The notes under the pieces are model-generated. The model had not been told where the DNA came from and made no database searches. It saw nothing but the letters and a program-made list of their open reading frames with translations. This document shows positions 36,695-43,720 of a stretch of 45,070 bases of DNA, piece after piece (the stretch's first letter is position 1; every line of letters begins with the position of its first letter). The translations under genes were made by a program, and so were the position numbers. The DNA lies in NCBI GenBank assembly GCA_947591245.1, contig CANQCY010000014.1, forward strand, positions 1-45,070, read 5' to 3'. This DNA is from an uncultured Lachnospiraceae bacterium. Lineage in GTDB: Bacteria; Bacillota; Clostridia; Lachnospirales; Lachnospiraceae.

Positions 36695-38092
36695 ATGGCT
36701 GAACAATTTACGACGCGCCTGAATGTGATGACTATCTCCTCGATGAGTACGTTTGCCAATATAAAGGGCGGTTTTCGCAAAGGCTGCAAAGACGTATATT
36801 TTTATCGGCTGCTCGGAATATCAGGGAACTATGTCGGGCAGATCGGGGAAATGGATGAAATGCTCAATGCCCGCATGCAGGCGGGAGCGGTTTCATATAA
36901 GAGAATACGGGAGCTTCCTAAAGTGGGCGTGGGTGATGAAATGGCGGTTTACATCCGTATTTACAAGGAGTGGCTGGAAAGCGGCAGAACGGCGCTGGCA
37001 TTTCCGCCGCTGGAGGACGATTGCTTTCGGAAGGTTCTGAGTATGGCTTGCAACAGGGTGTTGGAGCAGTACCGGAGTATCAATCCGAATTCAAATGACT
37101 CCCAGGAGCAGAATTTCATAATCAAGTTATTGTTCTGGCTTGACCGGCTGATGGAGGGATGGCTGACGGCATGGACAGAGGGGGAGAGCATCAAACTTGT
37201 GTCCGAAAACGTAAATAAAAAGCAGGAATATTTATTTTACATATTTCTCACTTTTCTCGGATTTGATGTGCTGCTGCTCCAATATAAAACAGACATCAGT
37301 GAGGATATGGAACGCCTTAATCTGTCGGGGAAATGCGTGATCGGTTCCTTTTCCGATGTTGATGTGCCGCCCTATGAGTACCGCGGGGAAAAAACGGCTG
37401 CTGCGCCGCCGCAGCGGACAGGTCAGGGGAACATGCGGGAAAGGATAGCGCCGCAGCGGACAGGGCAGGCATATGTGCGGGAAAGGATAGCCCCGCAGCG
37501 GACAGGTCAGGAAGAGCGGAGGGAAAAAACATACGAAGAGCTTGCCATGCTTTCGTCTTCTGTTGTCATGATCGCGATTCACAATCGGAAAGGCGACGTT
37601 ATAGGAACCGGTTCGGGCATCATGATCAACAAAGACGGATACATATTGACGAACAACCATGTTGCGAGCGGCGGTGCGTTTTATTCGGTGAAAATAGAGG
37701 ATGACGAACAAGTATATAAGACGGATGAGATTATTAAATACAATCCAGACATGGATCTCGCGCTGATCCGGATCTGCCGCCGCTTCAGCCCATTGCAGAT
37801 ATACCGGGGAAGCGGGCTGGTGAGAGGGCAGAGAGTGGTCGCGATCGGAAGCCCCTTGGGGCTGTTCAATTCGATTTCCGACGGTATAATCGCCGGATTC
37901 CGAAAGATCAACAATGTTGATATGATACAGTTTACTGCCCCGATTTCGCATGGCAGTTCGGGCGGTGCGCTGATGAACATGTACGGTGAGGTGATCGGAA
38001 TCAGTACGGCGGGATTTGACGACGGACAGAATATAAATCTGGCGGTAGGATATGAGTGTATCCGGATGTTTGCGGGGGGCTTTGTACAATAG
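36695..38092 (+). CDS. YceG-like N-domain fused to trypsin/HtrA-like serine protease
   Basis: A 465-residue soluble protein without signal peptide or membrane helix. Residues 15-230 (VYFYRLLGISG, IIKLLFWLDRLMEGW, YLFYIFLTFLGFDVLLLQY) resemble a domain of YceG, the next gene. A linker with three 14-residue repeats (about 239-280, PQRTGQ...RERIA) leads to a trypsin-like domain (about 285-465): VASGSGIMINKDGYIL-like opening, H322 in TNNHVAS, D354 in DMDLALI and S422 in GSSGGAL, a complete catalytic triad with HtrA-like spacing; no PDZ domain. ATG 36695 starts well after AGGTGATG. It is thus probably a cytosolic protease tied to the Ter system. Confidence 0.85.
   Translation: MAEQFTTRLNVMTISSMSTFANIKGGFRKGCKDVYFYRLLGISGNYVGQIGEMDEMLNARMQAGAVSYKRIRELPKVGVGDEMAVYIRIYKEWLESGRTALAFPPLEDDCFRKVLSMACNRVLEQYRSINPNSNDSQEQNFIIKLLFWLDRLMEGWLTAWTEGESIKLVSENVNKKQEYLFYIFLTFLGFDVLLLQYKTDISEDMERLNLSGKCVIGSFSDVDVPPYEYRGEKTAAAPPQRTGQGNMRERIAPQRTGQAYVRERIAPQRTGQEERREKTYEELAMLSSSVVMIAIHNRKGDVIGTGSGIMINKDGYILTNNHVASGGAFYSVKIEDDEQVYKTDEIIKYNPDMDLALIRICRRFSPLQIYRGSGLVRGQRVVAIGSPLGLFNSISDGIIAGFRKINNVDMIQFTAPISHGSSGGALMNMYGEVIGISTAGFDDGQNINLAVGYECIRMFAGGFVQ
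37409..37534 (+). repeat. Three tandem 42-base coding repeats in the protease linker
   Basis: Units begin at 37409, 37451 and 37493, each with CCGCAGCGGACAGG. They encode a 14-residue Arg/Gln-rich segment (PQRTGQ, then RERIA); the third unit is degenerate after its first half. They form a flexible basic linker. Confidence 0.9.
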
Positions 38093-38196: not shown

Positions 38197-40491
38197 ATGT
38201 TTGAACGCGGAAAGATTGGCAAACTGGAAGATTTTTTTGCTGATTTAAGCGGGCGTAGGCAGAAAGGCGTATATTTTTACCGGATATACGGTTATAATGA
38301 ACAGATTGCCGCGTTTATCCGCCGGTATTATGAGGAAGCAAGGAAATCCGGTATCGTGATCGAAGGGAAAATTCAAAATCCGGATAAAAACAACCTTTCG
38401 TACTATGACGAGATAATGGGGATGGATTTTCAGGCGAATCCGGGTTTTATCCTTACAAGCTTGGGAAAATGGCTGCCGAGAATGAATGAGTATCAGAGAA
38501 AAACCGTAGCGGAGGCGATTTACGATTCGCTTGAGCTTTTGAGGAAAAGCGGCAAAAATATAAACATGCTGAAGAATGCATATATTAAGTTTATGTGCTG
38601 GCTGTATTATAAGTTTGAAAGAATCGTCAGCCGCCTCGGGGAGGATACAGTACCCAAAATACTATATGAAGGAAACATCAGCAGTTACGAACTGATGATG
38701 TTTTCGATTTTATCGAGTGCCGGATGCGACATTGTTTTACTGGAGTATTCAGGGGACGCCGGTTATGGGAAACTGGATCCGGCAAATGAGAAGTCGGATC
38801 CGCTCGTACTCCCGCAGATGGCGCCGTTTCCGGAAGGATATAATTTAAAAAGGGTTGGGCAGGAAATCAGGGAACAGATTGACAGGGAAAAGCTGTACGG
38901 CGATATGCCGTTGCTGCTGAATTGCACAAATGCATGGATTACCGGAAACGGTTTGGCAGATGTGCGGATGAGTCCCGCCATAAGAGGACGGGACGACCGC
39001 TTGTTTTACAATTGCTTTTACCGCATCCGCGGCGTTGAGGACAAGCTTCTCTATGTGAATGAATTGTACCAGTTCCAGCTTGGAATGCAAAACAGCGGGA
39101 GAAAGCTTGTTATTGTTGACCAGGGAATTCCGAATCCGGAGCCGGAAGAGATTAACCGTATTCAGAGAAGCTCTTATACGGACGCAAAGCAGATGATTTT
39201 CGGTTTGCTGTCGAATCTCCGCGATGTGCCGGATGGCGAATTGAAAAAGCTGATGAAAAAGGCATTCATTGATGTGATGCTGGAAGAATCAGCCAAACTG
39301 GAGACGTCCGGATCAACAGGCTTGAATATAAATAAATTGATCAATAAGGCGGTTTATCTTTTGTGCTGTCTGCGGCGCTACGAGAAACAGCTGTTTGACA
39401 GATGGGACAGGGAAAGCATTGCCTGCTTTATTTATTTCGGAGCGTGCAGGAACGCAAACGAGGTGCTGTTTTTGCGGATGCTGGCGAGGCTTCCGGCGGA
39501 CGTCGTGCTGCTTGAACCCAATTTAAATGAGACCGTTCCGATCGACGATCCCATTTTGTATGAAATTTGTTATAATGAGACCATGTCGGTAAGCAGGTTT
39601 CCGAGGCAGAGTCCCGAAGTGCATTTGGGAACTGCGGCATATCATGCGGAGCGGGAACTCGATTCCATTATATATCAGGATTCGGGGATTTACCGAAACC
39701 AGCAGTATGCGAAGGCAAATGTCGTGACGCTGCAGACGATGTATGAGGAAATCGCTATTTTATGGGATCAGGAATTAAAATACCGTCCCAATTTCAGCGT
39801 TGTTGGCGAGGTGTTGACGATCCCTGTACTGTGCGCGAAAATTTCGGGGATTAAGGATGGAAATATAAATAATTATTGGGCGTCCGCGAAAAGACTTATG
39901 ACGGACGATACCACGGTGATCAGGAATGTACCGCATCTTAGGCGGGAAGACCCCAATCCGGTCAGGGCGTTTGCTGCGGAATTTTTGAAAAACGGGCGGC
40001 TTCTGCGTAAGAAGATTAAGGAGCACAGGAGTTATCAGTATGGCGTTTTGCGTGAAGAAATTCAGGAGCACATGTTGGACAAGCTTCAGGAGATTATTGA
40101 CCGGAAGGTGATAAAGGGTACATTTGAAAACGGAACGGAATATACGATTATCTCAACCGTTTTAAACCTGGACAAAGGCATTGTCAGGATGATTCAGAAA
40201 TTCGACTTTACGAAAAAAAATCCGAAGGTCATATATTTCTGTACCGGAGAAGAGCAGTTGTCTCTGGAAGACGCGGTTATGGCGCTGTTTTTAAGCCGTA
40301 TCGGATTTGATATTTTATTTTATGTACCTACGGGGTATCAGGTAGTGGAACAGTATTTTCAGGTCAAGGTGATGGAGGAACATCAGATCGGGGAGTTTGT
40401 ATACGACTTGGAGCTTCCTGATTTTGATGCCATTTCATCTCACAATACGCGCTGGTCGTGGCGGGAAAAAATATTTAAGAGAGGTACGTGA
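38197..40491 (+). CDS. yceG: YceG-family protein of the Ter module (three related repeats)
   Basis: A 764-residue cytoplasmic member of the Ter biosynthetic-module family YceG_bac; biochemical activity unknown. I see three copies of a related region, ending at about residues 152-180 (PKILYEG, then AGCDIVLLEY), 407-437 (ACFIYFG, then LPADVVLLEP) and 676-707 (PKVIYFCTG, then IGFDILFYVP), each a strand, a helix and a second strand. The previous protease carries one copy. ATG 38197 follows GAAGGTGAAGG, a moderate site; the long upstream frame to 38056 overlaps the protease and reads poorly. TelA starts 2 bases after its stop. Confidence 0.85.
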   Translation: MFERGKIGKLEDFFADLSGRRQKGVYFYRIYGYNEQIAAFIRRYYEEARKSGIVIEGKIQNPDKNNLSYYDEIMGMDFQANPGFILTSLGKWLPRMNEYQRKTVAEAIYDSLELLRKSGKNINMLKNAYIKFMCWLYYKFERIVSRLGEDTVPKILYEGNISSYELMMFSILSSAGCDIVLLEYSGDAGYGKLDPANEKSDPLVLPQMAPFPEGYNLKRVGQEIREQIDREKLYGDMPLLLNCTNAWITGNGLADVRMSPAIRGRDDRLFYNCFYRIRGVEDKLLYVNELYQFQLGMQNSGRKLVIVDQGIPNPEPEEINRIQRSSYTDAKQMIFGLLSNLRDVPDGELKKLMKKAFIDVMLEESAKLETSGSTGLNINKLINKAVYLLCCLRRYEKQLFDRWDRESIACFIYFGACRNANEVLFLRMLARLPADVVLLEPNLNETVPIDDPILYEICYNETMSVSRFPRQSPEVHLGTAAYHAERELDSIIYQDSGIYRNQQYAKANVVTLQTMYEEIAILWDQELKYRPNFSVVGEVLTIPVLCAKISGIKDGNINNYWASAKRLMTDDTTVIRNVPHLRREDPNPVRAFAAEFLKNGRLLRKKIKEHRSYQYGVLREEIQEHMLDKLQEIIDRKVIKGTFENGTEYTIISTVLNLDKGIVRMIQKFDFTKKNPKVIYFCTGEEQLSLEDAVMALFLSRIGFDILFYVPTGYQVVEQYFQVKVMEEHQIGEFVYDLELPDFDAISSHNTRWSWREKIFKRGT

Positions 40492-42293: not shown

Positions 42294-42884
42294 ATGTCTA
42301 TTAATTTGCAGAAAGGGCAAAAAGTCAGTTTGTCCAAAGATAATGCAGGATTGTCGCGGGTAATCGTCGGACTGGGCTGGGACGAGGCTCCCAGAAAAAA
42401 GGCCGGCTTCTTTGCGCCGAAACCACAGCCGATTGACTGCGATGCTTCTGCCATCATGCTTCGTAATGGGAAATTTGTTGATAATGCGGATCTTGTTTAT
42501 TTCGGAAATCTGCGCCATAGGACAGATACGGTGATCCACATGGGCGATAACCTGACCGGCGCCGGGGACGGCGACGACGAGCAGATCGTCGTTGACCTCG
42601 CAAACATCCCGCAGGAATATGACAAAATTGTTATTGTTGTCAATATTTATGACGCGGTAAAGAGAAAGCAGCATTTCGGAATGATTGCGAACGCATTTGT
42701 CCGCCTTGTGGATGCCCGCAATAATAATGAGATATGCAAATATAACCTCTCTGAAAATTATGAGGGCATGATGGCAATGGTGTTTGGTGAAATTTACCGC
42801 TACAATGGAGAGTGGAAATTTAATGCGATCGGCCAGGCAACGATGGATCCGGGTATCGGACAGCTCGTCAACCGGTATGTATAA
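42294..42884 (+). CDS. TerD-family protein (copy 2)
   Basis: A 196-residue paralogue of the preceding gene: VGLGWDEAP, an inserted hydrophobic, basic segment (RKKAGFFAPKPQP), reduced first calcium motif (PIDCDASAIML) and intact second one (MGDNLTGAGDGDDEQI), ending [14 protein letters not shown]. The insertion and altered first site suggest divergence of metal or membrane binding. ATG 42294 follows GGAGG by 7 bases, so 42294 rather than 42273 is chosen. Confidence 0.93.
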   Translation: MSINLQKGQKVSLSKDNAGLSRVIVGLGWDEAPRKKAGFFAPKPQPIDCDASAIMLRNGKFVDNADLVYFGNLRHRTDTVIHMGDNLTGAGDGDDEQIVVDLANIPQEYDKIVIVVNIYDAVKRKQHFGMIANAFVRLVDARNNNEICKYNLSENYEGMMAMVFGEIYRYNGEWKFNAIGQATMDPGIGQLVNRYV

Positions 42885-42889
42885 TTGTT

Positions 42890-43720
42890 ATGGACGTATT
42901 TTATACTGATCTTGACAATACAATCATTTACTCGTATAAATGCGATATCGGCGGGAATAAAATGTGCGTGGAGATTTATGAGGAAAGAGAAATTTCATTT
43001 ATCACCCGCCGGACGGCGGGCTTGCTGTCAGAGCTTTCCGGGCGCGCGCTGTTCATTCCGGTAACGACGAGGACGATAGAGCAATATCGCAGAATTAAAC
43101 TTCCAGTCAGTACTCCTCCATATGCGCTTGTGTGCAATGGCGGAGTGCTTCTGGTTGAGGGAAAAGAATGCGGGGAATGGTACCGAGAATCCATGGAGCT
43201 TGCGGCGGATTGCCAGAGCGACCTGCGGAGGGCGGAAAAGATGCTTTGCAGTGATCCGGACGTTGATTTTGAGGTGAGAAATATAAAAGGACTCTTTTTG
43301 TTTACAAAGAGCGCAAAGCCGCAAGAGACGGCAAAACGCTTGCGGGAGGGACTGGATGGCGGAGGCGCGGACGTGTTTGAAAACGGGAAAAAGGTATACG
43401 TTGTGCCAAAGCAGATGAATAAGGGGCTGGCGGTCAGAAGGCTGCAGGAAAAGCTGCGCGCCGGCGGCGTTATTTCAGCAGACAGCCGCATCATTGCGGC
43501 GGGGGACAGTGAATTTGATATCCCAATGCTTGCTGCCGCAGATATGGCTGTGGCGCCGTTTGCGCTTGCCCGGTCGGCGGAACTTCCGGAAGAAACTGTG
43601 GTGATGGGCGAAGGCGGCATTTTTTCCGATTTTCTGCTCGGCCATGTGCACGGGATTTTGCGAGCTGGAAAACTTGCTATGAAGCGCAGCCGCACAGGCG
43701 AAAAAACGGTTATGAATTGA
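42890..43720 (+). CDS. HAD-superfamily hydrolase of the Ter unit
   Basis: A 276-residue hydrolase with FYTDLDNTI (nucleophile motif DxD), VTTRT (motif II), PKQMNKGLAVRRL with the motif III lysine and AAGDSEFDIPML (motif IV). HAD enzymes are regular members of the Ter biosynthetic module, and this gene lies 5 bases after TerD. No ribosome binding site is seen, so coupling to TerD translation is likely. A mannosyl-3-phosphoglycerate- or sucrose-phosphatase-like fold is a family alternative. Confidence 0.88.
   Translation: MDVFYTDLDNTIIYSYKCDIGGNKMCVEIYEEREISFITRRTAGLLSELSGRALFIPVTTRTIEQYRRIKLPVSTPPYALVCNGGVLLVEGKECGEWYRESMELAADCQSDLRRAEKMLCSDPDVDFEVRNIKGLFLFTKSAKPQETAKRLREGLDGGGADVFENGKKVYVVPKQMNKGLAVRRLQEKLRAGGVISADSRIIAAGDSEFDIPMLAAADMAVAPFALARSAELPEETVVMGEGGIFSDFLLGHVHGILRAGKLAMKRSRTGEKTVMN

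Follow-up and report, generated by a model that had tools for sequence, protein, structure and literature searches.

A YceG Repeat Joined to an HtrA-Like Protease

The window, by which we mean the whole 45,070-nucleotide stretch of DNA analyzed here, corresponds to contig C14 in the draft genome (2.07 Mb, 55 contigs, 85% complete) of an uncultured Lachnospiraceae bacterium. On its forward strand, at 36695–38092, lies a gene for a fusion protein made of an N-terminal YceG repeat, a linker, and an HtrA-like serine protease domain. The open reading frame (ORF) is complete (465 aa plus stop), running from an ATG at 36695, which is preceded by AGGTGA, to a stop at 38092, and a promoter and terminator scan gave no clear signal at the gene. 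An AlphaFold model (70 sequences) with a mean predicted local distance difference test score (pLDDT) of 86.6 consists of an N domain, a disordered linker, and the protease. The family of this fusion looks sizeable: using either of two signature peptides we found 293 stretches, confirmed as relatives by tblastn, among 84,980 species genomes, and studied the best 80 of them, so that not all 293 need be fusions. Some of these 80 loci belong to genomes that are also in the family sample described below. We tried and rejected an origin on a mobile element, as tblastn against phages (18 of 50,697 records matching) and plasmids (898 of 72,556) gave only partial matches, none of which covered 80% of the protein at any one place.

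Judged from hydropathy and the AlphaFold model, the fusion has no evident membrane anchor or signal. Its hydropathy maximum (19-mer mean of 1.62 at residues 179–197) is, by hydropathy alone, borderline for a membrane helix, and in the model these residues form a helix plus a strand within the alpha/beta domain (pLDDT about 97–98). From its sequence and predicted fold, the protein is probably cytosolic. The sequence-only reading, an earlier interpretation of the bare DNA, had treated this as odd for an HtrA-like protease, normally extracytoplasmic or tethered. The lack of an evident anchor holds, but the oddity was overstated, since the linking of trypsin-like domains to other domains is a familiar theme of bacterial conflict systems (PMC7159879), and a trypsin-like domain off the cell surface is therefore not unprecedented.

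The catalytic domain occupies residues 277–465 (37523–38089), with Trypsin_2 (PF13365) matched by Pfam at residues 306–436 (89.9 vs. 27.6 bits, E 3.3e-25). The chymotrypsin-like fold with its His-Asp-Ser triad, the hallmark of the HtrA/S1C group, is present, and the triad first read as H322, D354, and S422 proved to be exactly numbered and, together with the glycine that precedes the catalytic serine pair, invariant in 80/80 aligned rows. Such invariance makes it extremely unlikely that the protein retains the HtrA fold only as a scaffold without catalytic activity, even though some clostridial HtrA-like relatives may lack activity, and the best solved sequence relative of the domain is clostridial RsgI9 (PDB 7sjy, E 1.9e-21), by its PDB name an anti-sigma-factor protein, unlike the fusion.

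PDZ domains commonly serve to switch and target HtrA proteases. Like HtrA, DegS, and DegP (S1C), the fusion has a PF13365 catalytic domain with the triad; unlike them, it has no PDZ match (Pfam to E 1), ends just past the last helix of the catalytic domain, carries no evident signal or membrane helix, and has an N-terminal YceG repeat instead. Its score of 113 bits is far under the 416-bit cut-off of the model for that group. The host has two other Trypsin_2 proteins, and in these, unlike in the fusion, inspection by eye shows a hydrophobic stretch at the N-terminus. In a tree of 34 protease domains the bootstrap was unsettled and the branches long, with three HtrA rows among the fusions. The best PADLOC match was RT-Protease_XI (E 3.4e-16, residues 278–452, the protease part only), where the trypsin-like domain likewise sits in the C-terminal part of a longer protein; the Pfam scan here returned no reverse transcriptase, the criterion for that system.

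The N-terminal repeat spans residues 1–232 (36695–37390) and is well predicted to about its end, with pLDDT by ten-residue block mostly 85–98. Its resemblance to YceG, also noticed from the bare sequence, is borne out by Pfam, which places YceG_bac (PF14266) at residues 111–195 with 38.0 bits against a gathering cut-off of 25 (E 1.8e-9), and by BLASTP of residues 1–235 against the neighboring YceG (E 3e-5, 26% over 186 alignment columns). The profile-profile comparison that had been proposed beforehand, made with hhalign on two alignments (the window's fusion with 79 others, its YceG with 63 others), matched the N domain to YceG repeat 1 with E 1.4e-10 (probability 97%) and to repeat 2 with E 2e-7, and gave no useful match to repeat 3. 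The order of the main helices and strands equals that of YceG repeat 2 and is close to that of repeats 1 and 3, in a comparison of order alone, listed by hand from the AlphaFold outputs with short elements dropped (among them one helix of five residues in YceG repeat 2 and one of four residues in the fusion). The sequence profiles confirm that the N domain is homologous to a YceG repeat. The E. coli protein called YceG is the cell-wall enzyme MltG, which is distinct from the Bacillus-type YceG (PF14266) referred to throughout. With the latter the fusion shares the repeat, by profile and by predicted main-element order, but where YceG has two or three repeats the fusion has one repeat plus a protease, with a single PF14266 stretch and a single such domain in the model.

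Between the two domains, residues 235–271 (37397–37507) form a predicted disordered linker (pLDDT mostly under 50) that overlaps an in-frame 42-bp tandem repeat at 37407–37511. We extracted 73 of the 80 linkers, leaving out seven, and found the pattern [VIL]x[VIL]x[LIV]Px[RK] in 29 of them, against a mean of 0.19 (maximum 2) over 500 residue shuffles, which ignore kinship and were applied to a pattern drawn up after viewing the same linkers. Two looser patterns occurred in 36/73 and 37/73 linkers, vs. 2.9 and 1.5 in the shuffles. A related pattern was present in 31/80 fusions and in 3/2511 other ORFs, and in none of 68 YceG, 63 TelA, 110 TerD1, 67 TerD2, 50 PRT2, 50 StiP, 58 C-C lyase, and 49 HAD proteins. 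The tandem repeat of the window carries a degenerate form only, RERIAPQR. As a guess, the motif could be a putative pseudo-substrate or docking strand.

The Fusion Gene Lies in a Ter Cluster

The fusion counts as a Ter component in that it is encoded with TerD, TelA, and YceG. Downstream on the same strand, after a gap of 104 bases that leaves no room for a rhomboid gene, come the genes for YceG (38197–40491; 764 aa, three PF14266 stretches, seen by Pfam and AlphaFold), TelA (PF05816, 40494–41645), two TerD-domain proteins (PF02342, 41669–42250 and 42288–42884), and a HAD-family phosphatase (42890–43720), all assigned by Pfam, as are the upstream genes. These code for a PRTase_2 plus TRSP protein (PF15609 and PF12500, 33425–34552) and a StiP plus PELOTA_1 protein (PF11202 and PF15608, 34574–35623), both on the forward strand, and, on the reverse strand as the divergent neighbor of the fusion gene, a C-C bond lyase (PF15617, 35630–36589). 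In the window the phosphatase gene directly follows the terD genes (42884–42890), a place where many related clusters have a P-type cation ATPase that is absent here; the ATPase was found in 57/80 loci. Anantharaman et al. reportedly described, in 2012, Ter clusters with TerD, TelA, YceG, and a biosynthetic module. The neighboring gene kinds are the same here, and the loci we studied add the fused protease and, often, a rhomboid.

A survey of other Ter clusters, proposed along with the sequence-only reading, found that the fusion recurs, and that yceG is the next recognized downstream gene in 67/80 loci. With this recurrence and the YceG match of the N domain, neither of the two outcomes named as refuting the sequence-only reading came about. 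We rejected strict adjacency, as the next recognized gene is not yceG in the other 13. Five of these exceptions have little or moderate downstream sequence (L083, L092, L111, L130, and L136), seven have about 9 kb downstream without a recognized gene (L087, L100, L122, L146, L152, L155, and L156), and in L126 YceG lies on the other side of the fusion. Of the 13 genomes, 12 also have a YceG match outside the fusion. It shares a contig with the fusion in G680 (L087) and G687 (L126); the match in G690 (L122) is a fragment, 65 profile positions long, located where a contig begins.

On the upstream side, the nearest recognized gene is that of the C-C lyase in 52/80 loci (49 once DUF445 and others are recognized). 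This position suits a reading that we consider doubtful, in which the YceG repeat would sense the small molecule made by the PRTase, StiP, and C-C lyase enzymes and, on binding it, activate the protease as a stress or anti-phage effector, with no docking to YceG. Among the seven loci with no recognized downstream gene, the fusion has all three of these enzymes beside it in L087, L146, and L152 and the C-C lyase in L122, and both the occurrence of trypsin-like domains in conflict systems (PMC7159879) and the PADLOC match would be in keeping with such an effector. However, the fusions of L100 and L156 have none of those enzymes in view, no Walker A motif is found in the N domain (0/80 fusions), and the protease domain, with a mean identity of 74% to that of the window, appears more conserved than expected for a rapidly evolving effector.

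Between the fusion and yceG, 34/68 loci have a rhomboid gene (PF01694, identified by Pfam scans of four examples), 33/68 have nothing recognized, and one has a different order. The GxSG motif and a following H-x-x-G are present in 36 of the 37 rhomboid-matching ORFs. We therefore weighed a two-step cascade in which the fusion and this intramembrane protease would together release a membrane-bound Ter factor. It seems very unlikely, since those 33 loci, and the window itself, have no recognized intervening gene, and since the rhomboid also occurs in the clusters of fusion-less genomes (L073, L074, and L075). More generally, many Ter clusters, whether or not they contain the fusion, have a rhomboid gene immediately upstream of yceG (examples are L020:10932-11528, L024:11265-11855, L077:12278-12850, and L073:7815-8399), an arrangement of which our literature search turned up no description.

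The YceG of the window was modeled by AlphaFold (44 sequences, mean pLDDT 85.1) as three units similar in make-up. Between repeats 2 and 3, residues 473–498 (39613–39690) are highly conserved and predicted with low confidence; their consensus, GTAAYHAERELD..MYQDSG.YRN, is a possible binding motif. The YceG repeats (38197–40491) also have a weak, below-noise likeness to P-loop NTPase folds, with Walker A mostly missing. That this conserved stretch exists, that YceG repeat 1 is the closest counterpart of the N domain, and that the two genes are adjacent in most loci could all suggest that the protease cuts YceG, as the sequence-only reading had proposed, or competes with its first repeat for a partner. 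We regard this as quite unlikely, because YceG proteins of genomes lacking the fusion have a similar 473–498 stretch, and because we found no YceG column conserved (≥85%) in 64 sequences from fusion-carrying clusters and rare (≤20%) in 11 from fusion-less genomes, in a crude test that a site common to all YceG would escape. A fusion-specific site in YceG is thus rejected among the columns compared, and nothing points to a dedicated cleavage site.

The Fusion Occurs in Genomes With YceG

We searched samples at the level of the family, the order, and the class, which partly overlap. In the family sample (299 genomes, window included), YceG_bac matches were found in 28 genomes. Fusion-type proteases, defined by E below 1e-69 and at least 59% identity, were present in 15 of these 28 and in 0 of the 271 YceG-negative genomes (Fisher's exact test, p 5e-18, with kinship uncorrected and the window counted), and all 15 also hold a YceG match separate from the fusion. 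The next protease matches reach at most 46% identity, with E 3.7e-33 or weaker (search cut at E 1e-25). In G240 the N domain is unseen because the protein runs off the contig end, and in the genus-mate G108 neither YceG nor TerD was matched.

At the order level, 52/295 genomes have a YceG_bac match, and at least 13 of the 52, from five families and including the window, carry the fusion, a lower bound because most of the other genomes of the 52 were not fetched. Twelve of the eighteen stretches that were fetched hold fusions with both halves matched (G780, G798, G909, G713, G940, G884, G894, G943, G948, G912, G937, and G906), and each of the 13 genomes holds a separate YceG match. The class sample has a YceG_bac match in 20/391 genomes and the fusion in G592, near a terD gene, and in G571, with PF14266 scores of 71 bits and 77 bits (downstream piece), respectively. 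The G571 fusion (L234:2708-4123) has an in-frame stop; TerD is present in that genome, which has no separate YceG match. Lachnospiraceae-related gut bacteria often carry the fusion beside Ter genes, and relatives of the fusion type also occur in records whose titles do not denote metagenome-assembled genomes (MAGs), e.g., Anaeromicropila populeti 743A (L105) and Clostridium sp. MSJ-8 (L128). One locus from a record titled Candidatus Gastranaerophilales (L094) has a Lachnospiraceae-like Ter cluster, possibly through a binning error.

The YceG Repeat as a Putative Targeting Module

The invariant triad and the co-occurrence with YceG support, by inference from sequence, the view that the fusion is proteolytically active and linked to Ter systems that contain YceG, and they lend the same kind of support to the earlier idea of a proteolytic arm of the Ter response. 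We lean, by a little, toward the gene encoding a dedicated protease of YceG-type Ter systems in which the YceG repeat is a targeting or switch module. The PDZ domain is missing, and the repeat is found at the opposite end of the catalytic domain. Most simply, the repeat would stand in for PDZ as the targeting or switch module. The repeat may pack against YceG, itself a repeat scaffold, or against its partners TelA or TerD; alternatively, it may bind the same signal as YceG. Docking or the signal would then bring the protease to, or activate it on, a client held by the complex during stress. A more detailed version of this proposal, namely a regulated proteolytic branch in which the YceG-repeat scaffold would recruit the cytosolic protease via a detached copy of its repeat, often with a rhomboid added and with the V-x-V-x-L-P-x-R linker motifs serving as a docking or pseudo-substrate latch, is in our estimate unlikely.

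Several observations weigh against a dedicated, YceG-targeted protease. Thirteen of the 28 YceG-positive genomes of the family sample have no detected fusion, and while some are incomplete drafts, YceG probably works without it. The MAG G681, which may be incomplete, has a fusion, at a contig end, and no separate YceG or TerD match, and in L100 and L156, which have long flanks, the fusion stands without any recognized Ter or biosynthetic neighbor. The N domain evolves fast, with a mean identity to the window of 37% vs. 74% for the protease, which is uncommon in a module that serves strictly for docking. Finally, the comparison of columns described above gave no position in YceG that tracks the fusion.

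The function of Ter clusters with YceG and TelA is poorly known, and the fusion points to a protein-cutting branch of this poorly understood stress system. The invariant active site, the fusion to a YceG repeat, and the co-occurrence with YceG together offer a measurable biochemical readout, and the substrate of the protease, once found, would tell what the complex of YceG handles. Both halves of the protein are already known. In the accessible parts of the works reached by our literature search we found no description of the combination, its spread, or its tie to YceG, so that it appears undescribed within that scope, and an earlier description is possible.

Two minor observations concern related clusters. 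Some of them have a DUF445 gene immediately before the fusion gene, on its upstream side (L083:7316-8176, L024:9005-9829, and L253:485-1321). In genomes of genus g545 that have no other YceG match (L240, L241, and L242), a divergent YceG relative is encoded beside a TelA gene; this protein of about 490 aa has a single PF14266 match and does not match the fusion protease.
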